Below, in pieces: positions 7,400 to 22,693 of a DNA stretch of 48,027 nucleotides. How positions within the stretch are numbered: position 1 is the stretch's first letter; each line of letters opens with the position of its first letter. Position numbers and translations under genes: made by a program. Below the pieces are notes generated by a model that was not told the origin of the DNA, ran no database searches, and worked only from the letters and a program-made list of their open reading frames with translations. The stretch is from a bacterium (GTDB lineage: Bacteria > Planctomycetota > UBA1135 > GCA-002686595). The stretch spans positions 1 through 48,027 of the forward strand of contig JAUHYB010000001.1 in NCBI GenBank assembly GCA_030426745.1, in the 5' to 3' direction.

Positions 7400-7954
7400 T
7401 CAGGCCTCCTCGAGCAGCTCGAAGAGGCGCGCGCGGGCGAAGGCCCACTCGCGGTGCGCGCTGCGCTCGGACACGTCCAGCGCGCGCGCCACGTCCGGCA
7501 TCGACAGGCCGGAGAAGAAGCGCAGGCGCACGACGGCCGCGGCGCGCGCGTCCTCGGCCTCGAGCCGCGACAGCGCGTCGTCCAGCGCGAGCAGCTCTTC
7601 GGGCCCCATCTCCGACGGCGCCTCGGGCGCGCCCAGCGTCACGCGGTCGCGGTCGCCGCCGCGCTTCTCGCTGCGCACGCGGCGCGCGTGGTCGATCAGC
7701 ACGCGGCGCATCGCCTCGGACGCCGCGCCGTAGAAGTGCCGACGGTCGCGCCACTCGATCGCGTCGTTGCCCGCCAGGCGGATCCAGGCCTCGTGGACGA
7801 GCGCCGTCGCCTGCAACGTGTGCTCGCCGCGCTCGCCGCGCATGCGCCCCTCGGCGAGGCCGCGCAGCTCGCCGTAGACGAGCGGCAGCAGCTCGTCGCG
7901 GGCGGCGTCGCCGCCTCGCAGGATGCGGGTCAGTTCACCTGGGTCGCGCGACAC
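7400..7954 (-). CDS. ECF RNA polymerase sigma factor (TIGR02999-type)
   Basis: The protein has 184 residues with sigma-70 region 2 (about 15-85: 'LLPLVYGELRGLAEGRM', then 'ALVHEAWIRLAG' and 'HFYGAASEAMRRVLIDHARR') and region 4 (about 115-180: 'LSRLEAEDARAAAVVRLRFFSGLSMPDVARALDVSERSAHREWAFARARL', given here as family blocks). The 'H-E-A-W-I-R-L' and 'I-D-H-A-R-R' blocks are typical of the sigma family found beside Ser/Thr kinases in Planctomycetes and Acidobacteria. The start at GTG 7954 was chosen because the family normally begins about 8 residues before 'ELTRIL'; no clear ribosome-binding site supports it. It forms a two-gene operon with the kinase and is divergent from the RegB-like gene, with 217 bp between them. 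Confidence 0.88.
   Translation of the reverse strand: MSRDPGELTRILRGGDAARDELLPLVYGELRGLAEGRMRGERGEHTLQATALVHEAWIRLAGNDAIEWRDRRHFYGAASEAMRRVLIDHARRVRSEKRGGDRDRVTLGAPEAPSEMGPEELLALDDALSRLEAEDARAAAVVRLRFFSGLSMPDVARALDVSERSAHREWAFARARLFELLEEA
7405..7410 (-). promoter_or_regulatory. Shine-Dalgarno fixing the kinase GTG start
   Basis: AGGAGG on the minus strand lies inside the last codons of the sigma factor gene, 6 nt before the GTG at 7398. It supports the GTG start and coupled translation of the two genes. Confidence 0.7.
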
Positions 7955-8171
7955 GATGGAGGGGGGCGCGCCGCGGCGGGGAGCCGGCGGTCGTCGCGCG
8001 CCGATTCTAGCGGCGCGCGAAGGAGCGCGCGCCGTCCGGTCGTGTGCGGGGGAGGTCCTCATGCGTGTCACCGGGGGACGAGGCGCGGCGCGCCGCCGGA
8101 CCCTGCCACGCGAAACGCGCGTTCTCGGGCGCTTTCCGCGCGCCTTCCGGGACGCTACGCTCCGCCCCGCG

Positions 8172-9503
8172 ATGATCGAGAGTCCCCATCCCGGCGCCGG
8201 CCCGGTCCTGCGCGAGCGGGAGTGGATCAACCTCGAGTGGCTGATCCGGCTGCGCTGGGCGGCCTTCCTGGGTCAACTGGGCACCGTGCTGTGCGTCGAG
8301 TTCGGCGTCGGCGTGGCGCTGCCCTGGTCGGGCATCCTGCCCGTGCTGGCGATCGAGGTGCTGTCGAACGCGTGGCTCGAGTACTGGATCCGCAGCTGCC
8401 GCGGCGGTCCCGAGAGCCCGCGCGTCGTCGCGCTGCTGCGCTGGATCAAGATCAGCGTGATGGCGGGCGACGTGTTGCTGCTGTCGATCATGCTGTACGT
8501 GACCGGCGGCGTCGCGAACCCGTTCAGCGTGTTCTACGTCGTGCAGCTCGTGCTGGCGGCGGTGCTGCTGCGGCCCAGCCGCGCGGCGGCGGTCTCGCTG
8601 CTGACCGTGCTGTGCTACGGCACGCTGTTGATCGACAGCCGCGACTTCCCGGCCGTGCTGCCGGGCGCGCCGCACCTGCCGCGCGGGCAACTCGTCGCGT
8701 TCAGCACGGCGATCATGGTGATCCTGTACTTCGTCACGCGCGTGACCAGCGCGCTGTTCGAGCACGAGGTGCACCTGCAGGAGGAGCAGGCGTTGCGCTC
8801 GAGGCGCGACCGCATCGAGGCGCTGGGCACGCTGGCGGCCGGCGCGGCGCACGAGCTGGCGACGCCGCTGTCGACCATCGCCGTCGCGTCGTCGGAGCTG
8901 GCGCACCAGCTGGAGAAGGGCCAGGTCGACGAGGACACGCTCGACGACGCGCGGCTGATCCGCGAGCAGGTCGGCATCTGCCGGCGCATCCTGGACCAGA
9001 TGACCGTCGACACCGGCACGCAGGTCGGCGAGCCGATGGTCGACCTGACGGTGGGGGACCTGCTGGAGCAGACCGTGGACGAGCTGCCCGAGCCCGAGCG
9101 CGCCGTGGTCGAGGTGGACGACGCGCTGCGCGGGCGCGAGCTGTTCGTGCCGATGACGGGCCTTTCCATGGCGCTGCGCGGCATCGTCAAGAACGCGATG
9201 GACGCGTCGCCGGACGGCGCGCAGGTGTACTTCCGCGCGGAGGAGGCCGGCGACACGCTGCGCCTGTCGATCCGCGACCGGGGCGAGGGGATGAACGAGG
9301 CGGTGTTGCAGCGCGCGCTCGACCCCTTCTTCACGACGAAGGATCCGGGCAAGGGGATGGGGCTCGGCCTGTTCCTCGCGCGCAGCACCTTCGAGCGCCT
9401 GGGCGGCAGCCTGCGCATCGAGTCGCGACCGGGCCAGGGCACGACGGTCGTCGTGGACCTGCCGTTCGAAGCGCTGCAACGCCGCCGCGGTCCGCTAGGA
9501 TGA
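8172..9503 (+). CDS. regB: RegB/PrrB-like redox-sensing histidine kinase
   Basis: The protein has 443 residues. About six transmembrane helices (25-195) include GGVANPF at 112-118, which matches the GGxxNPF quinone-interaction motif of the RegB/PrrB family. The H-box has His227 in 'GAAHELATPLSTI', and 43 residues later Cys270 lies in 'VGICRRILDQM', at the place of the redox-active cysteine of RegB. The ATPase domain has an N-box with Asn341 ('IVKNAMDAS'), G1 'DRGEGM' and G2 'GKGMGLGL'. Together these identify a membrane kinase controlled by quinone-pool redox state. The start was taken at ATG 8172, because upstream open frame is Arg-rich low-complexity sequence. The response regulator begins 22 bp downstream. 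The gene symbol is by family resemblance only. Confidence 0.9.
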   Translation: MIESPHPGAGPVLREREWINLEWLIRLRWAAFLGQLGTVLCVEFGVGVALPWSGILPVLAIEVLSNAWLEYWIRSCRGGPESPRVVALLRWIKISVMAGDVLLLSIMLYVTGGVANPFSVFYVVQLVLAAVLLRPSRAAAVSLLTVLCYGTLLIDSRDFPAVLPGAPHLPRGQLVAFSTAIMVILYFVTRVTSALFEHEVHLQEEQALRSRRDRIEALGTLAAGAAHELATPLSTIAVASSELAHQLEKGQVDEDTLDDARLIREQVGICRRILDQMTVDTGTQVGEPMVDLTVGDLLEQTVDELPEPERAVVEVDDALRGRELFVPMTGLSMALRGIVKNAMDASPDGAQVYFRAEEAGDTLRLSIRDRGEGMNEAVLQRALDPFFTTKDPGKGMGLGLFLARSTFERLGGSLRIESRPGQGTTVVVDLPFEALQRRRGPLG

Positions 9504-9525: not shown

Positions 9526-10092
9526 ATGAGCGAGAACGAAGAAGCGCGCGACACGGTTTCGGCGAAGAGCATGCTGCTCGTGGACGACGACGTCGTGCTG
9601 CGCGAGCGCCTGGCCAAGGCCTTCCGCCGCCGCGAGTACGAGGTCCGCACCGCGGGCAACTACGAGGAAGCGGTCGAGCTGGCGCGCGACGACTCGCCCG
9701 AGTTCGCCGTCGTCGACCTGAAGATGCCGGGCAAGGGCGGGCTGGAGCTCGTCATGGCGCTGCACGAGATCGACCCGTCGACGCGCATCCTGGTGTTGAC
9801 CGGCTACGGCTCGATCTCGACGGCCGTCGAGGCGATCAAGTTCGGCGCCGTGAACTACGTGCCGAAGCCCGCCGACGTCGACGACCTGCTCGCCGCCTTC
9901 GAGAAGGCGGACCAGGAGCGTCCGGACGAGCAGACGCAGGACTACCAGGCGCCCAGCCTGGCGCGCGCGGAGTGGGAGCACATCCAGCGCGTCTACACCG
10001 ACTGCGGCGGCAACGTCTCGGAGGCCGCGCGACGGCTCGGGATCCACCGCCGTTCGCTGCAGCGCAAGCTGCAGAAGCGGCCGCCGAACTAG
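9526..10092 (+). CDS. regA: RegA/PrrA-like response regulator with Fis-type HTH
   Basis: The protein has 188 residues. The receiver domain (about 15-130) has acidic residues Asp20-Asp22, phospho-acceptor Asp64 ('VVDLKMPG'), Thr92 and Lys114. A short linker leads to a C-terminal Fis-type helix-turn-helix (about 145-188) ending 'EAARRLGIHRRSLQRKLQKR', which closely follows the RegA/PrrA/ActR/RegR DNA-binding domain. The short two-domain layout without an AAA+ domain is characteristic of this family. It is the partner of the upstream RegB-like kinase. Three palindromes of the RegA-family recognition type lie just downstream, before the ACIII-caa3 operon, so that operon is the predicted target. 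Confidence 0.92.
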   Translation: MSENEEARDTVSAKSMLLVDDDVVLRERLAKAFRRREYEVRTAGNYEEAVELARDDSPEFAVVDLKMPGKGGLELVMALHEIDPSTRILVLTGYGSISTAVEAIKFGAVNYVPKPADVDDLLAAFEKADQERPDEQTQDYQAPSLARAEWEHIQRVYTDCGGNVSEAARRLGIHRRSLQRKLQKRPPN

Positions 10093-10233: not shown

Positions 10234-10250
10234 TGCGACAATCTGCCGCA
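10234..10250. promoter_or_regulatory. RegA-type box 1
   Basis: TGCGAC-AATCT-GCCGCA is an imperfect palindrome that fits GCGNC-N5-GNCGC, the known RegA/PrrA/RegR recognition core, with matching T and A flanks. It lies about 245 bp before the ActA start. Confidence 0.68.
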
Positions 10251-10307
10251 CCGCTTCGACGGTGGAATCGGCCCTATGACCCCCAGGAGGGTGATCCGTG
10301 GCGGGGG

Positions 10308-10324
10308 TGCGGCGATCGGTCGCA
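10308..10324. promoter_or_regulatory. RegA-type box 2
   Basis: TGCGGC-GATCG-GTCGCA is the same pattern with the other half-site arrangement, 74 bp after box 1. It sits within a longer inverted repeat (10303-10329) that could also form a hairpin in RNA. Confidence 0.68.
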
Positions 10325-10382
10325 CCCCCGTCGCGCGGGCATCTCCGGAGGCAGGGGTCCGGAAGGTGCGGCCCGCCCCGCG

Positions 10383-10399
10383 TGCGACGATTTGCCGCA
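10383..10399. promoter_or_regulatory. RegA-type box 3
   Basis: TGCGAC-GATTT-GCCGCA differs from box 1 only in the 5-bp spacer. It starts 75 bp after box 2 and ends 95 bp before the ActA start codon, so it is the copy most likely to be promoter-proximal. Confidence 0.7.
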
Positions 10400-10494: not shown

Positions 10495-11145
10495 ATGCAG
10501 AGATTCCACTTCCCTCGCTGGACGAACCTCCTCGTCCGCGGCCTGCCGATCGTCGCCGGTCTGACCGGCGTGTACCTCGTCGGGCTCGTCGCCTTCGGCG
10601 GTTCGCCGGACACGCTGGCCGTCGGCTACGCGCCGGAGCAGCCGATCCCGTTCAGCCACCGCCTCCACGCCGGTGAGCTGGCGATCGACTGCCGCTACTG
10701 CCACACGACCGTCGAGGAGACCGCGCACGCCGCGATCCCGCCGGCCGCGACGTGCATGAACTGCCACGAGCGGATCAAGACCGACAGCCCGCTGCTGCGC
10801 CCGCTGCGCGAGGCCGTCGCGACGGACCGCCCGATCGAGTGGATCCGCGTGCACGACCTGGCGGACTACGCCTACTTCGACCACAGCGCCCACGTCACGC
10901 GCGGCGTCAGCTGCGTGTCCTGTCACGGGCGCGTCGACCAGATGGACGTCGTCGAGCAGGTCGAGCCGCTCTCGATGGGCTGGTGCCTCGACTGCCACCG
11001 CGACCCCGCGCCGAACGTCCGCCCCGTCGACAAGGTCTTCGACCTCGCCTGGGAGCCGCGCGAGGACGCGCGCTCGCTGGGCGAGCGATTGATCGCGGAA
11101 CGCGGCATCGCCCCCTCCACGGACTGCTCCACCTGCCACCGCTAG
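10495..11145 (+). CDS. actA: Alternative complex III pentaheme cytochrome c subunit ActA
   Basis: The protein has 216 residues. One N-terminal membrane anchor (about 12-35) is followed by a periplasmic domain with five CxxCH heme sites (Cys66, Cys87, Cys140, Cys164, Cys211 as first cysteines). A membrane-anchored pentaheme cytochrome at the head of this gene order is the ActA signature. ActA passes electrons from the iron-sulfur/quinol module towards cytochrome c or the oxidase. I chose the ATG at 10495 ('MQRFHFPRW'), which resembles ActA N-termini, over the in-frame ATG at 10459 that adds an Arg-rich 12-residue extension. This is the first gene of a long operon preceded by the RegA-type boxes. 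Confidence 0.93.
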   Translation: MQRFHFPRWTNLLVRGLPIVAGLTGVYLVGLVAFGGSPDTLAVGYAPEQPIPFSHRLHAGELAIDCRYCHTTVEETAHAAIPPAATCMNCHERIKTDSPLLRPLREAVATDRPIEWIRVHDLADYAYFDHSAHVTRGVSCVSCHGRVDQMDVVEQVEPLSMGWCLDCHRDPAPNVRPVDKVFDLAWEPREDARSLGERLIAERGIAPSTDCSTCHR

Positions 11146-11149
11146 AGAC

Positions 11150-14100
11150 ATGTCGAACGAGACCGCGACCCACTGGCGCAGCTTGCGCGAACGAGCCGGG
11201 GACGAAGCCCTGGCCGAGCGCGTGTCGCGCGAGTTCACGGACATCGCGCCCGAGACGGCCGACGGCGTGGACCGCCGCCGCTTCCTGCAGTTGATGGGCG
11301 CGTCCGCCGCGCTCGCGACGGCGTCGGGCTGCAACTGGGAGGAAGAGGAGATCCTGACGTTCTCCTCGCGCCCCCAGGACTTCGTTCCCGGCGCGACGAA
11401 GTCGTACGCGACGGCGATGGACCTCTTCGGCGCGGCCAAGGGCCTGCGCGTGACGACCTTCGACGGCCGCCCGATCAAGGTCGAGGGCAACCCGCTGCAC
11501 CCGTCGAGCGGCGGCGCCACCGACGTGCACGCGCAAGCCGCGATCCTCGAGTTCTACGACCCCGACCGCAGCCGCGCGGTGATCCGCGGCGGCGCGCCGT
11601 CGAGCTGGGAGGAGTTCGGCGCGGCCATGTCGACCGCGTTCGACCCCGGCCGCGGCGACCAGGGCGCCGGCATCGGCGTGATCGCCCGCGCGACGGGCTC
11701 GCCGACGGACGCGCGCATGCGCGCCGCGCTGCTCGAGCGCTTCCCGCGCGCGACGTGGGTCGCCTGGGAAGCGGCGAGCGACGAGAACCACGTGCGCGGC
11801 ACGGAGCTGGCGTTCGGCCGGCCGCTGCGCGCGCGCTACGACTTCCGCCGCGCGCGCCGCGTCGTGGCGCTCGACGCCGACTTCCTGCGCGACCACGCCG
11901 ACGGCGTGCGTCACAGCGCGGAGCTGGCCGAAGGGCGTCGCCCCGAGTCCGGCGCGATGAACCGCGTGTACGCGGTCGAGTCGCGCTTCACCGCCGTCGG
12001 CGCGACCGCCGACCACCGCCTGCCGCTGCGCGCGTCCGACGTCCCCGCCTTCCTCGAGCTGCTCGAGGAGCGCGTGATGGGGGACCAGGGCCTGAAGCGC
12101 GGCGCGCCCGCCCCCGGCGCGAACGCGCGTCGCCTGGCGCAGAACGAGACCGTCCGCCACTTCGTCGACGCCGCCGCGCAGGACCTGCTCGCGCACCGCG
12201 GCGAGGCGCTCGTGCTGGCCGGCAAGGGCCAGGCGCCCGAGGTGCACGCTCGCGTCGCTCGCCTGATGGACGCGCTGGACTGCGTCGGCCGCACGGTCAC
12301 CTTCCGCCCCGCGGCGGACGCGACCCGCAGCGACGTGCAGGCGTTGCGCTCGCTGTGCGCGCGCGCCGCGGCCGGCGAGGTCGAGACGCTGCTCGTGCTG
12401 GGCGGCAACCCGGTCTACGACGCGCCCGCCGACGTCGACGTCGCGGCCGCGCTGGAGCGCGCCGAGACCAGCGTCCATCTGGGCCTCGCCGTCGACGAGA
12501 CGGCGCGCGCCTGCGAGTGGCACCTGCCGCAAGCGCACTTCCTGGAGTCGTGGAGCGACGCGGTCGCGCTCGACGGGACGTACAGCGTCGTCCAGCCGAC
12601 GATCCTGCCGCTGTTCGGCGGCCGCGGGGTCGCGCAGGTCGTCGCCATGCTGCTCGGCCGCGACGCGGACGGGCTGGCGCTGGTGCGCGAGACCTTCGCG
12701 CAGCGCTTCGACGCCGCCGGCTGGAACCGCGCGCTGCACGACGGGCTGGTCGCGGACAGCGCCGAGGCGCCGGTCGCCGTCGCGCTCGCCGACGAGTCGA
12801 GCTACCGCCTGTCGGAGCCGACCGGCGACACGGGCCTGGAGCTGAACTTCTACGCCTGCCCGAAGCTGATCGACGGCCGCTACGCCAACAACGGCTGGTT
12901 GCAGGAGCTGCCGGACTTCACGACCAAGCTGACCTGGGACAACGCGCTGATGGTCGGGCCGGCGACGGCGAAGGACCTGGGCGTCGAGCACGAGGACGTC
13001 GTGCGCGTGACCATCGACGGCGCCTCGCTCGAGCTGCCCGTCTTCATCGCGCCCGGCGAGGCGAAGGGCAGCGCTTCGGTCGCGCTCGGTTACGGCCGCT
13101 CGGCCGCCGGCGTGGTCGGCGGATCGACGACCGACGAGGTCTTCGGCGTCGGCGTCGACGTGCGCCCGCTCCGCAAGGGCGACGGGCTGTGGACGGCGCG
13201 CGGCGCCCGCGTGGAGCGCACCGGCCGCACTTACCGGCTGGCGACGACCACCGAGCACCACATGATCGACGCCGCGGGCATGGAGGCCCGCGAGCAGCGC
13301 CTCGACCGCCTGGTCCCGTCGGCGACGGCCCAGGAGTTCGCCGAGCACCCGGACTTCGCGCAGCACGTCGTGCACCACCCGCCGCTCGAGTCGCTGTGGA
13401 AGGACGTCGAGCTGCCGGACGGCCACCGCTGGGGCATGTCGATCGACCTGTCCGCCTGCGACGGCTGCAACGCCTGCGTGATCGCCTGTCAGGCCGAGAA
13501 CAACATCCCGGTCGTCGGCAAGGAGCAGGTGCTGAAGGGCCGCGAGATGCACTGGATCCGCATGGACCTGTACTTCTCGGGCGACCCCGACGCGCCGGAG
13601 GCCGTGACGCAGCCCGTCGCGTGCCAGCAGTGCGAGCACGCGCCCTGCGAGCAGGTCTGCCCCGTCGCCGCGACGGTGCACACGCAGGAGGGCCTGAACG
13701 ACATGGTCTACAACCGCTGCGTCGGCACGCGCTACTGCTCGAACAACTGCCCCTTCAAGGTCCGCCGCTTCAACTTCTTCAACAACACGGCGTTCCTGGA
13801 CGAGCCGGAGAACGAGCTGCTGCAGCTCGCGCAGAACCCGGACGTCACCGTGCGCAGCCGCGGCGTGATGGAGAAGTGCACGTTCTGCGTGCAGCGCATC
13901 CAGCGCACGAAGATCGACGCGAAGAACGACCGCCGTCCGATCCGCGACGGCGAGATCCAGACCGCCTGCCAGCAAGCGTGCCCGCCCAAGGCGATCGTCT
14001 TCGGCGACCTGGCCGACGACGACTCGCAGGTCTCGCGCCTGCACGCGTCGCCGCGCTCCTACGCGCTGCTCGGCGAGCTCAACATCCGCCCGCGCAACCA

Positions 14101-14156
14101 GTACCTGGCCCGCGTGACGAACCCCAACCCGGCCCTCGTGCCCGCTTCGACCGACC

Positions 14157-14179
<23 letters not shown>
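11150..14179 (+). CDS. actB: Alternative complex III molybdopterin-like/iron-sulfur subunit ActB
   Basis: The protein has 1009 residues. The N-terminus has a Tat-like signal, Arg42-Arg43-Arg44 then '[12 protein letters not shown]', ending at Cys61, a probable lipidation site as in other ActB proteins. Residues about 65-730 form the molybdopterin-oxidoreductase-like part (ActB1), which carries no cofactor in known ACIII. Residues about 760-980 form the ferredoxin-like part (ActB2), with four Cys clusters: '[12 protein letters not shown]', '[13 protein letters not shown]', '[11 protein letters not shown]' and 'CTFCV...CQQAC'. These should hold three [4Fe-4S] and one [3Fe-4S] centres. The gene starts 4 bp after ActA and overlaps ActC by 23 bp if ActC starts at 14157. 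Confidence 0.94.
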
Positions 14180-15607
<1,428 letters not shown>

Positions 15608-15611
<4 letters not shown>

Positions 15612-16801
15612 GCGCTCCCGAGCTCCACGGTTACGTCGCCTACTACGACGACGTCGACTCGCTGATCGGCGCGGCGCGCCGCGTCAAGGAATCCGGCTTC
15701 CGCCGCTTCGACGCGCACTCGCCGTTCCCGGTGCACGGCATCGACCCCGCGATGGGCATCCGCCCGACGATCCTGCCCTGGCTGGTGCTGGGCGCGGGCC
15801 TGACGGGCTGCGCCGTCGCGCTGGGCATGCAGTACTGGATGAACGGCGTCGACTACGCCTTCCTCATCTCCGGTAAGCCGCTGTTCGGCCTGCCGGCCGC
15901 GATCCCGGTCACCTTCGAGGTGATCATCCTGCTCAGCGCGATCACGACCTTCGTGGGCATGCTCGCGCTGAACAAGCTGCCGCTCTTGTCGAACCCGCTG
16001 CACCGCACGCCGGGCTTCGAGCGCGTCACCGCGGACCGCTTCGCCATCTCGATCGAGGCCGCCGACGAGCGCTTCGACGAGCAGGCGACGCGCGAGTTCC
16101 TGCGCGAGACCGGCGCGACCGTGATCGAGCGCTGCGAGGCCGACGACTCGCCCGCCGGCCTGCCCAAGATCGTCAAGCAACTGACGATGGTCGCGGCGGC
16201 GATCGCGCTGATCCCGCCGGCGCTGATCGCGATGGAGCGCTACGGCACGCGCACCACGCCGCGCATCCACCTGATCCCGGACATGGACCACCAGCCGAAG
16301 GCGAAGACGCAGTCCGCGTCGTCGATCTTCGAGGACGGCCGCTCGATGCGCGCGCCCGTCGAGGGCACGGTCGCCGTCGGTGAGTGGATCGAGGACGAGT
16401 ACCGCGCCACCGGCAAGGTCGCGGACCAGTGGGGCAGCGGCTTCCCGTTCACGATCGACGAGGTCGTGATGCAGCGCGGCCGCGAGCGCTACGACATCTA
16501 CTGCGGCGTCTGTCACGGCCTGGACGGCCTCGGTCGCGGACCGGTGTCCGTGCGCGCCGAGTCGCTGCAGGAGGCCGCGTGGATCCCGCCGACCAACCTG
16601 CACGACGAGCGCCTGCTGACCGTCCCCGAGGGCCAGCTGTTCGACGTCATCACGAACGGCATCCGCAACATGCCCGCCTACTCCGGGCAGATCACGGTCG
16701 ACGACCGCTGGGCCGTCGTCGCGTACCTGCGCGCGCTGCAGCGCAGCCGCGCCGCCGACCGCGAGGACCTGCCCGCCGAGCGTCAGGAGGACTTCAAGTG
16801 A
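15608..16801 (+). CDS. Fused alternative complex III subunits ActD (DUF3341) and ActE (monoheme cytochrome c)
   Basis: The protein has 397 residues. The N-terminal ~200 residues are ActD-like/DUF3341: a soluble start ('[18 protein letters not shown]'), 'SPFPVHGID', then two transmembrane helices (about 58-80 and 98-118). A third helix (about 196-212) leads into a periplasmic C-terminal domain with one heme site, CGVCH, and a later Met in 'IRNMPAY' as likely sixth ligand; this is ActE-like cytochrome c. The reading frame is continuous with no internal stop. ActD and ActE are usually separate genes. The start is GTG with a strong ribosome-binding site, overlapping the ActC stop by 4 nt; the stop overlaps ActF in the same way. 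Confidence 0.9.
16785..16790 (+). promoter_or_regulatory. Shine-Dalgarno fixing the ActF GTG start
   Basis: AGGAGG lies 7 nt before the GTG at 16798, inside the last codons of the ActD-ActE gene. The arrangement is the same as at 15595-15608. Confidence 0.72.
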
Positions 16802-18024
16802 GCGCCCACGCCACGATCCACGCGCCCGAGCGCGCCAAGGTGACGCCGACCGGCCTCGCGAGCCGCGGCAAGCTGTTCACGATCGCCGGCCTGGCGCTGT
16901 GCGCGCTGGCGCTGGTCCTGGGCCTCGTCCAGGACGGCGGCACGCGCCACCTGCAGCACTCCTGGCTGCTGGCGGTGACCTACTTCATCACGCTCGGCCT
17001 GGGCGGCCTGTTCTTCGTCCTCGTGCAGCACCTGGTGCGCGCGGGCTGGAGCGTCGTCGTCCGCCGCATGGCGGAACACGTCGCCGGCGCGCTGCCGCTG
17101 ATGGGCCTCCTGCTGCTGCCGATCGTCGTCCCGACGTTGTTCGGCAACGGCGACCTGTACCACTGGGCGGACACGCACGAGCGCGAGGTCAGCCACCTGC
17201 TGCACGAGAAGGCGCCGTACCTGAACGGCCCGTTCCTGCTGGTGCGCGTGCTGATCTACGTCGGCGTGTGGACGCTGCTGGTGCGCGCGTTCAACCGCCG
17301 CTCGCTGGCGCAGGACGACACGGGCGACCCGGCGCTGACGCAGTGGATGCAGACGCGCGCCGCGCCGTCGGTCCTGGCGTTCGCGCTGACGCTGACGTTC
17401 TTCTCGTTCGACATGCTGATGACGCTGAACTACGAGTGGTTCAGCACCATCTTCGGCGTGTACATCTTCGCGGGCAGCGCGCTGGCGCTCTTCGCGACCC
17501 TGGTCCTTTTCTCCCGCCGCTTCGAGAAGCGCGGGGAACTCGAGGGCATCGTGACGACCGAGCACTACCACGACCTCGGCAAGCTGCTCTTCGCCTTCGT
17601 CTTCTTCTGGGGCTACATCGCCTTCAGTCAGTACATGCTGATCTGGTACGGCGACATCCCCGAGGAGACGCAGTGGTTCGCGGCGCGCTGGGTCGGCGGC
17701 TGGAAGGTCGTCTCGCTGGTGCTGCTCTTCGGGCACTTCCTGCTGCCCTTCGTCGGTCTCCTGTCGCGCCACGTGAAGCGCAACCGCCTGCTGCTCTCCG
17801 GCTGGGCCGTCGCGCTGCTCGTGATGCACCTGGTGGACCTGTACTGGCTGATCATGCCGACGCTTTCGCCGGAAGGCGTGCGGGTCGGCCTCATCGACAT
17901 CGCTTGTCTGTTGGGCGTGGGCGGTCTCTTCCTCGGAGGAGTCCTGCGCCGCGCGGACGGGCGCCCCCTCGTCCCGCTGCAGGATCCGCGGCTCGACGAG
18001 TCCCTGGCATTCGAGAACATCTGA
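16798..18024 (+). CDS. actF: Alternative complex III membrane subunit ActF
   Basis: The protein has 408 residues with about ten transmembrane helices and shares the NrfD-like fold of ActC. Recognisable blocks are 'LFGNGDLYHWADTHE', 'YLNGPFLLVRVLIYVGVW', 'FSFDMLMTLNYEWFSTIFGVY' and 'SQYMLIWYGDIPEET', all characteristic of ActF. Together with ActC it forms the membrane platform of ACIII. The true start is GTG 16798; the open frame extends further upstream but there it runs antisense-like through ActD-ActE. The start overlaps the preceding stop by 4 nt. A gap of 23 bp separates it from the next small gene. Confidence 0.92.
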   Translation: MSAHATIHAPERAKVTPTGLASRGKLFTIAGLALCALALVLGLVQDGGTRHLQHSWLLAVTYFITLGLGGLFFVLVQHLVRAGWSVVVRRMAEHVAGALPLMGLLLLPIVVPTLFGNGDLYHWADTHEREVSHLLHEKAPYLNGPFLLVRVLIYVGVWTLLVRAFNRRSLAQDDTGDPALTQWMQTRAAPSVLAFALTLTFFSFDMLMTLNYEWFSTIFGVYIFAGSALALFATLVLFSRRFEKRGELEGIVTTEHYHDLGKLLFAFVFFWGYIAFSQYMLIWYGDIPEETQWFAARWVGGWKVVSLVLLFGHFLLPFVGLLSRHVKRNRLLLSGWAVALLVMHLVDLYWLIMPTLSPEGVRVGLIDIACLLGVGGLFLGGVLRRADGRPLVPLQDPRLDESLAFENI

Positions 18025-18047
18025 CTTACGAGAACTGGGTGAACACC

Positions 18048-18356
18048 ATGGTCGAAAAAGACGCTCTCAACACGCCCGCCATCGCCGTCATCGGCGTCGT
18101 CGGAACGATCGTGACCTTCGTGACGGTCCTGTGCCTGCAGGTGCTGTACTACCGCGCCGAGGACTCGCAGGCCGCGTCGCGCGCCGCCGAGGCCGGCACG
18201 CCCGAGATGCGCGTGATGCTCGCCGAGCAGCGCGCCTCGCTCGAGGGCTACGAGTGGGCCGACCGCGAGGCCGGCAAGGTCCGCATCCCGATCGAGGACG
18301 CCATGGAGCTCGTCGCGCGTGAAGCCGCGGCCAACTCCGCCGGCGCCTCCTTCTGA
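18048..18356 (+). CDS. Small one-TM protein in the ACIII-oxidase operon
   Basis: The protein has 102 residues: a short cytoplasmic start, one transmembrane helix (about 11-32), then a periplasmic segment with a tail 'YEWADREAGKVRIPIEDAMELVAREA' (shown as two overlapping blocks in the family). Similar short proteins with a 'Y-x-W-x-D...G-x-V-R-I-P-I-x-x-A-M' tail occur beside SCO and oxidase genes in other bacteria, from memory of such neighbourhoods. It could be an ACIII accessory subunit (ActG-like position) or an oxidase assembly factor. No cofactor motif is seen. An in-frame GTG at 18039 is an alternative start. The gene lies 23 bp after ActF and 13 bp before the preferred SCO start. Confidence 0.72.
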   Translation: MVEKDALNTPAIAVIGVVGTIVTFVTVLCLQVLYYRAEDSQAASRAAEAGTPEMRVMLAEQRASLEGYEWADREAGKVRIPIEDAMELVAREAAANSAGASF

Positions 18357-18369
18357 TCCCGAGCTGCTC

Positions 18370-19212
18370 GTGACGGCCCGGGCCCGCATCCGCACCGCGT
18401 TCGCGGTCGCCTGCCTCCTCGGCGGCGCGACCGCGTCGTCGTGGGCGCTGCCCGCGCAGTGGAACGGGAACCAGCCGGACGAGCTCGAGGGCCTGACGGT
18501 CGACGAGCGGCTCGAACAACGCGTGCCGGCGGACCTCGTGTTCGTCGACTCCGCGGGCGCCGAGCTGACCGCCGCGCAGGCGCTCACCGGCGACGTCCCG
18601 ACGATCCTGACGTTCAACTACAGCGACTGCCCGATGCTGTGCAGCATGCAGCTGAACGGGCTGGTCGACGCGATCGAAGCGTCGGAGCTGCGGCTGGGCG
18701 AGGACTTCCGCGTCGTGACGATCGGGCTGGACCCGCTCGAGACGCCGGAGCGCGCCGCGAAGACGCGCGCCCGCTACTACGACGAGCTCGGCCTGGACCC
18801 CGCGCGGGCCGGGTGGAGCTTCCTGCTGGGCGACGAGCCGACGATCCGCCGCGCCGCGGAGTCGGTCGGCTTCGGCTACCGCTACGTCGAGGACAGCGGC
18901 GAGTACGCCCACGCCGCCGTCCAGATGGTGCTGATGCCCGACGGCCGCGTCTCGCGCTACCTCTACGGCGTGGACGTGCCCGGCCGCGACCTGCGCCTCG
19001 CCCTCGTCGAGGCCTCGGAGGGTCGCATCGGCACCAGCGTCGACGCGTTCCTCCTGTTCTGCTTCCACTACGACCCGGGGACCGGCGGGTACACCTTCGC
19101 CTGGACCACGATGCGCCTCGGTGGGGCGCTGACCATCGCCGCCCTCCTCGGCGGCCTGTACTGGCTGCGCCGCGCTCGTCGCGCGCAGGCCATCGACCGC
19201 GCATACGCATGA
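18370..19212 (+). CDS. SCO1/SenC-family copper chaperone for cytochrome oxidase
   Basis: The protein has 280 residues: an N-terminal signal sequence (about 1-27, ending near 'SSWALPA'), a thioredoxin-like SCO domain, and a C-terminal transmembrane helix (about 250-272). The copper site is complete: Cys87-x-x-x-Cys91 in 'DCPMLCSM' and His181 in 'EYAHAAVQM'. SCO proteins load copper into the CuA site of subunit II, which is encoded immediately downstream. Start GTG 18370 gives a proper signal peptide; an upstream in-frame GTG (18319) would overlap the preceding gene and add a Pro-rich stretch. The stop overlaps CoxB by 4 nt (ATGA). Confidence 0.9.
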   Translation: MTARARIRTAFAVACLLGGATASSWALPAQWNGNQPDELEGLTVDERLEQRVPADLVFVDSAGAELTAAQALTGDVPTILTFNYSDCPMLCSMQLNGLVDAIEASELRLGEDFRVVTIGLDPLETPERAAKTRARYYDELGLDPARAGWSFLLGDEPTIRRAAESVGFGYRYVEDSGEYAHAAVQMVLMPDGRVSRYLYGVDVPGRDLRLALVEASEGRIGTSVDAFLLFCFHYDPGTGGYTFAWTTMRLGGALTIAALLGGLYWLRRARRAQAIDRAYA

Positions 19213-20174
19213 TGCTCACACTCGCGCAAGCCGGCGAGGGCACCTTCTGGTTCCCCGCGCAAGCTGCGGAGGACGCGGCGAAGGTGGACGACCTCTTCTA
19301 CTTCGTCCTCTACGTCAGCGTCTTCTTCTTCCTGCTGATCATGACGATCCTGTCGATCTTCGTGATCCGCTACCGCCGTCGCGACGACAGCGCGCCGCAG
19401 AAGTCGCCGTCGCACAACACGGTCCTCGAGATCGTGTGGTCGGTCATCCCGACGGCGCTCGTCGTCTACATGTTCTACGCGGGCTTCACCGAGTACCTCT
19501 CGAAGCGCCAGCCCCCGGCCGAGACGTACGAGATCGGGGTGACGGCCCAGAAGTGGAGCTGGAACTTCACGTACCCGAACGGGCACGTGACCGACGTCCT
19601 GCACGTCCCGGTCGACGAGAACGTCAGCGTGCTGATGACGTCGGAGGACGTGATCCACTCGTTCTTCGTCCCGGCCTTCCGCGAGAAGATGGACGTCGTC
19701 CCCGGCCGCTACACGAAGGCCTGGTTCAAGCCGACGATGGTGGGGGAGTTCGACCTGTTCTGCGCCGAGTACTGCGGAACGTCGCACTCCGAGATGATCA
19801 CGAAGGTCGTCGTCCACCCGCAGGACGGACCGGACTCCTTCGAGGAGTGGCTGCGCGAGGACTCGGACTTCCTGTCGAAGCTGTCGCCCGTCGACGCCGG
19901 CAAGAAGGTCTACCAGATGCGCGGCTGCGCCCAGTGCCACTCCACCGACGGCACCAGCGGCAACGGCCCGACGTTCAAGGGCGTGTGGGGCACCGAGCGC
20001 CGCATGGCCGACGGCAGCGCCGTGACCTTCGACGAGAACTACGTGCGGGAGTCGATCCTGCAGCCCAAGGCGAAGGTCCTCGTCGGCTACGAGCCGGTGA
20101 TGCCGACCTTCCAGGGCCGCATCAAGGACGACGAGATCACCGCCCTCATCGCGTTCCTGAAGTCCCTCCAGTAG
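19209..20174 (+). CDS. coxB: caa3-type cytochrome c oxidase subunit II with fused cytochrome c
   Basis: The protein has 321 residues. Two transmembrane helices (about 28-52 and 73-95) are followed by a cupredoxin domain with all CuA ligands: His150 ('DVIHSFF'), Cys185, Cys189, His193 and Met196 ('[12 protein letters not shown]'). A C-terminal cytochrome c domain has one heme site, Cys240-x-x-Cys243-His244, and a late Met ('VMPTFQGR') as axial ligand. The fused cytochrome defines the caa3 class and allows direct electron entry from ACIII. The N-terminus is '[11 protein letters not shown]'; the first of two adjacent ATGs overlaps the SCO stop. Confidence 0.96.
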
Positions 20175-20184
20175 AGCCCGCACG

Positions 20185-21864
<1,680 letters not shown>

Positions 21865-21865
21865 G

Positions 21866-22693
<828 letters not shown>

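Follow-up and report, generated by a model that had tools for sequence, protein, structure and literature searches.

The window analysed here is a stretch of 48,027 nucleotides from an uncultured planctomycete (G000; 4.23 Mb in 704 contigs, 80.8% complete). It contains an operon for alternative complex III (ACIII) and a caa3 oxidase in which actA, actB, actC, actD and the cox genes all run in one direction. A RegBA-like gene pair, recognised by its Pfam domains, precedes this operon, and a gene for a RegA-like regulator lies directly upstream of three short palindromic boxes, as had been claimed in the initial annotation (Table 1). Within the operon, a single frame (ORF 15326-16801) encodes ActD together with an ActE-like, mono-haem cytochrome c domain, which is an apparent fusion.

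Table 1. Features of the regBA-actA region and the operon downstream (positions in the window)
Feature	Position	Strand	Sequence	Remarks
RegB-like sensor kinase	ORF 7923..9503	+		Pfam HisKA/HATPase; true start probably further in
RegA-like response regulator	9526..10092	+		Pfam; receiver and Fis-type HTH, 188 aa
Box 1 (distal)	10234..10250	+	TGCGACAATCTGCCGCA	Pattern scan and matrix score
Possible -10 of putative promoter P1	10275..10280	+	TATGAC	24 bp after box 1; single instance, weak
Inverted repeat with box 2 at its centre	10297..10335	.		17 pairs including three G-T
Box 2 (weaker, opposite orientation)	10308..10324	-	TGCGGCGATCGGTCGCA	Pattern scan and matrix score
Box 3 (promoter-proximal)	10383..10399	+	TGCGACGATTTGCCGCA	Pattern scan, matrix score and -10 spacing
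Putative -10 of promoter P2	10423..10428	+	TAGTTT	23 bp after box 3; predicted transcription start ~10435
actA, multihaem cytochrome c of ACIII	10495..11145	+		ATG 10495 is the probable start; longest ORF from 10459
Remaining operon	11150..22693	+		Starts: actB 11150, actC 14157
Operon genes, later part		+		SCO1 18319; COX2 in ORF 18441-20174; COX1 20185; COX3 21866

The hallmarks of RegB have been listed as the GGxxNPF motif, the H-box and the redox-box cysteine (PMC8191878). All are present in the kinase, at GG195-196xxNP199-201F, His310 and Cys353 in ORF numbering. The quinone heptapeptide reads GGVANPF, and its G, G, N, P and F, like His310 and Cys353, are invariant in 10 homologues. RegB has six transmembrane segments; in the kinase, hydropathy gives several peaks before residue 280, merged to a degree that yields no definite number of segments. 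The best NCBIfam family of the kinase is ActS/PrrB/RegB (NF033792; 231.7 bits, under the equivalog cut-off of 350), and that of the regulator is ActR/PrrA/RegA (NF033791; 192 bits, under the cut-off of 250, with a lead of 99 bits). The regulator has the architecture of RegA, with a receiver and a Fis-type helix-turn-helix in about 180 aa and regB adjacent, and its helix-turn-helix is similar to the PrrA effector domain of known structure, 1umq (E 8.5e-12). It probably works like RegA; the equivalog label is not justified because the score lies below the cut-off.

Three 17-mers between regA and actA fit the pattern TGCGRC-N5-GYCGCA exactly, at the positions first described, and no further match occurs in the window. 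The original estimate of well under one match by chance was borne out: 0.12 are expected in the window, and three were reached in 0 of 100 dinucleotide shuffles. The strict 17-mer is also rare in the 4.23-Mb genome, where a scan suggested in the initial annotation returned five matches, three of them the boxes in the window. Of the other two, one (C292:8635) is situated ~154 bp ahead of cydA, encoding cytochrome bd oxidase subunit I, and one (C265:20841) has a low matrix score. Allowing one mismatch gave 72 matches in the genome vs 152 for the reversed control, and the scan is uninformative at that level. The loose core GCGNC-N5-GNCGC, originally offered as evidence for RegA, fared poorly: its 31 matches in the window are no more than chance provides (36.6 expected), so the rarity argument is valid for the strict 17-mer only. 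The evidence for RegA boxes is thus the stricter 17-mer together with its association with regA, not the match to the loose core.

The three sites differ from one another. In the direction of the operon, sites 1 and 3 read TGCGAC...GCCGCA, and both score ~24 bits, whereas site 2 is reversed, scores 17.5 bits and lies inside a hairpin. The inverted repeat that forms this hairpin is strong and has no T-run; in a transcript from the putative promoter P1, the hairpin would form near the 5' end.

The association of the box with regA was examined in two sets of genomes. The order-level set comprised 30 genomes with a close actA, which were oriented and scored by a symmetric matrix built from sites found with the initial annotation's own pattern; sites of at least 14 bits were counted as boxes. 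A box was present upstream of actA in 8 of the 9 genomes with a RegA-like regulator vs 0 of the 21 without (Fisher 1.5e-6, a value which, like those below, overstates the association because related genomes are not independent). The distance from these upstream boxes to actA is 76-282 bp, and the genomes that carry them are G000 (three), G016 (two), G029, G042, G046, G059, G037 and G050. A RegA homologue was found in all of these except G050 (7 of 8), where regA is most likely unassembled because the contig ends just past the RegB gene following COX3; in the family of G050, regBA comes last in the operon. Scoring G050 as an exception to the association changes the Fisher value to 3e-5. Two genomes added later, G093 and G105, combine RegA with exact boxes upstream of actA. 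Across 29 upstream regions of 500 bp, five exact matches were seen, and ~0.01 would be expected by rough arithmetic based on a frequency of about 4 exact matches in 5 Mb of genome.

The second, independent set was obtained by an actA alignment scan and consisted of 80 named loci. The 500 bp preceding actA (39.6 kb in all) contained six matches of at least 17 bits vs one in the other 1.27 Mb. The box-bearing loci belong to Phycisphaerales, to other Planctomycetota and to loci named Polyangiaceae and Deltaproteobacteria. Among the 50 named genomes searched for RegA, a box was found in 7 of 12 with RegA vs 1 of 38 without (Fisher 6e-5); this test counts boxes down to 12.7 bits, including weak boxes in L176, L187 and L188 accepted by eye at no more than 260 bp from actA, and is therefore less strict than the first. 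The position of regBA varies by family, being before actA in f1 and at the operon end in f7. Conservation in related ACIII operons, as foreseen in the initial annotation, was seen where the regulator is kept (the 8 of 9 in the order) and fails in genus g65 and in G053, which have no box between regA and actA or before actA, respectively. The box-regA association in both sets supports the proposal of RegA-type operators, and these comparisons make it very probable that RegA operators stand before the ACIII-caa3 operon.

Further targets were sought in RegA-positive genomes with a stricter pattern, TGCGRC-R-N3-Y-GYCGCA. The predicted enrichment at respiratory genes was observed: in addition to actA, boxes precede cydA (G000), a cytochrome c/cox2 operon (G002, G088) and ccoNO (G093, with three boxes). 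The boxes are GCGRC-N5-GNCGC palindromes upstream of respiratory genes, as expected of RegA/PrrA/RegR boxes. The stricter pattern also occurs before PEP carboxykinase and ferredoxin genes (G088) and before other genes with no respiratory link. Two candidates were rejected. As a conserved target, cydA fails because it is present in only 4 of the 31 genomes, with a box before it in G000 alone; as a general target, ccoNO fails because boxes are found in G093 and G046, a distant one in G029 and none in most others. Strong RegA-type boxes outside respiration have been noted upstream of PEP carboxykinase (L118 of G088, 1985) and uvrA (L125 of G101, 3341).

The actA upstream regions of 14 genomes were aligned on the promoter-proximal box. 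The dinucleotide TA follows the box by 22-24 bp in 11 of the 14, by exactly 23 bp in eight of these, and among 5,000 shuffles no single offset was shared by more than five; the bases flanking the box are not conserved. If this TA is taken as the first two bases of a -10 hexamer, the box centre lies ~44 bp upstream of the transcription start, where class II activators bind, and the constant spacing gives site 3 the position of an activator in contact with the -35 region. No sigma-70 consensus promoter was found near the boxes, and no -10-like element at the corresponding offset from box 2. At genes other than actA the -10 offset is not clearly repeated, so that the layout is a property of actA promoters. 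This geometry makes class-II-like activation probable.

Taken together, the boxes are likely to be operators of the adjacent RegA-like regulator that convey a RegBA redox signal through class-II-like activation of actA, and good confidence is placed in this explanation. The box sequence, its rarity, the regA association, the constant box-to--10 distance and the signature residues of RegB and RegA were computed directly; binding, activation (not repression) and the redox signal are what we infer. The RegB-like kinase would probably sense the quinone pool via its GGxxNPF site and redox cysteine and would phosphorylate RegA. The Fis-type helix-turn-helix of a RegA dimer would then bind TGCGAC-N5-GYCGCA. 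At box 3, with its centre ~44 bp before the predicted start, the dimer would lie beside and over the -35 region and recruit RNA polymerase, in a class-II-like manner, to a promoter that has a recognisable -10 and lacks a good -35. In this way actA, and with it the ACIII-caa3 operon, would be transcribed. Box 1 may belong to a second such promoter or be an upstream auxiliary site, and box 2 may be an auxiliary site with a hairpin.

A fixed box-to--10 distance is typical of contact activation. This distance, and the lack of an occluded consensus -35 in the searched region, argue against a RegA that binds and represses, with box 3 over the -35 region blocking RNA polymerase. The placement at -35 fits repression too, and RegA of Rhodobacter capsulatus has been shown to activate cco aerobically and repress it anaerobically (PMC5359404). 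Repression is considered unlikely.

Could the boxes instead be operators of another regulator that co-occurs with regBA, RegA being merely a neighbour? Several genomes with RegA have no box before actA (G053, L143, L163, L172 and L205), and L189 has a box with no RegA found. In the nine genomes of genus g65, regBA lies directly before actA without a box in the gap, where nothing of note appeared even at a low threshold. These exceptions fit such a regulator; they can also be read to mean that the link between box and regulator has been lost or rewired in places. Against a mere neighbour, the association spans separate families and phyla with differing gene orders (as in f1 and f7), and the boxes resemble RegA ChIP sites of R. 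capsulatus. A different regulator is thus rather improbable, and operators of RegA are preferred.

Genus g65 includes Planctomycetes bacterium Poly30 (CP036434.1; G095), a member of the host's GTDB family, known as Saltatorellus ferox, of a genus in Planctomycetota. Box-like sites of 14.7-18.5 bits lie between regB and regA in L103, L104, L105 and L108 of this genus, which suggests that regA may be autoregulated there. The g65 gap between regA and actA (L102-L111, alignment A3) has two conserved elements. One, TTGCGAC-N4-TTCTCAAC, is absent or altered in some members; the other, CACTATTCT...GCG...TGAACAGCGTTC, is in several members part of a CTGTTC-N6-GAACAG palindrome. They are possibly a replaced operator or promoter.

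The initial annotation viewed the three boxes as a looped or cooperative nucleoprotein complex at seven-turn spacing. Its arithmetic is correct: with 10.5 bp to the turn, 74 and 75 bp make 7.05 and 7.14 turns. Even helical phasing is nevertheless not sustained as a functional feature: in G016 the interval is 79 bp, which is out of phase by half a turn, and most genomes have one box. Spacing near ActA, said to be a mark of support if conserved, varies accordingly, and the intervals at ccoNO in G093 are 65 and 32 bp. Two near-integral intervals are unremarkable by chance, and box 2 is both inverted and weaker, which leaves a looped complex little chance of being correct. The strong redox switch that was also suggested is no more than conjectural. 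Finally, the boxes might be GC-rich palindromes that arose by chance, box 2 simply forming the stem of a hairpin that resembles a terminator after regA. This is hardly credible. In its favour, the loose core occurs about as often as chance predicts and box 2 lies inside the 17-pair hairpin; the shuffle expectation and the conservation tied to regA argue against it for boxes 1 and 3, and for box 2 alone it is possible.

The regulation of ACIII, and respiratory regulation in Planctomycetota as a whole, have been little studied, and none of the papers in the literature library searched dealt with the promoter or the regulator of ACIII. The predicted operator and the fixed promoter geometry make this regulation directly testable in box-bearing relatives. 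A broader reading of RegBA is tentative in each of its parts. RegBA and the 17-bp operator might form an old respiratory regulon across Planctomycetota, Myxococcota and Proteobacteria, although this is doubtful at present. It is conceivable, at similarly modest confidence, that planctomycete RegB reads the (mena)quinone pool and that RegA sets the amount of ACIII. Equally speculative is a direct feedback loop in which ACIII empties that pool, with a fixed class-II promoter layout. In G000, the arrangement could perhaps have been elaborated into two promoters in tandem, P1 and P2, separated by an inverted operator-hairpin, a suggestion made with the same reserve.

The planctomycete pair resembles RegB/RegA, PrrB/PrrA, ActS/ActR and RegS/RegR, which likewise combine a kinase with GGxxNPF, H-box and redox cysteine and a short regulator with a Fis-type helix-turn-helix, encoded by adjacent genes. 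It differs from known RegB/RegA in scoring under the NCBIfam equivalog cut-offs and in its link to ACIII, and its RegB is presumed, as a prediction, to sense menaquinone instead of ubiquinone. The boxes of Rhodobacter and Bradyrhizobium share the GCGRC-N5-GNCGC design with those of planctomycetes. The planctomycete box is stricter (TGCGAC-N5-GYCGCA), keeps one orientation, lies at a constant distance from a -10-like element and, unlike the others, has actA of ACIII as its main target. Planctomycete homologues of RegB/RegA are already present in a published tree (PMC8191878). The PrrA site YSCGGC-N5-GWCRMA and the RegR site GNGRCRTTNNGNCGC have the same 5/6-N5-5/6 design of half-sites and spacer as the planctomycete box (as quoted in PMC5506826). 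When scored with the planctomycete matrix, 33 R. capsulatus RegA ChIP 15-mers (PMC5359404) average 5.1 bits vs -14.7 for shuffles, which denotes motif likeness, not shared targets, as the 15-mers were themselves picked by motif discovery. The best-scoring of them is the cydA site, and both cydA and ccoN are among the RegA targets of R. capsulatus (PMC5359404). RegBA of Acidithiobacillus ferrooxidans controls respiratory genes too; the known boxes were not found before RegA-bound genes in that species, and no motif could be derived (PMC5506826). In contrast to Acidithiobacillus, the present results suggest that the DNA code read by RegA has been kept between phyla. To conclude, the probable RegA operators described here are ordinary in kind, whereas their lineage and their target are new.
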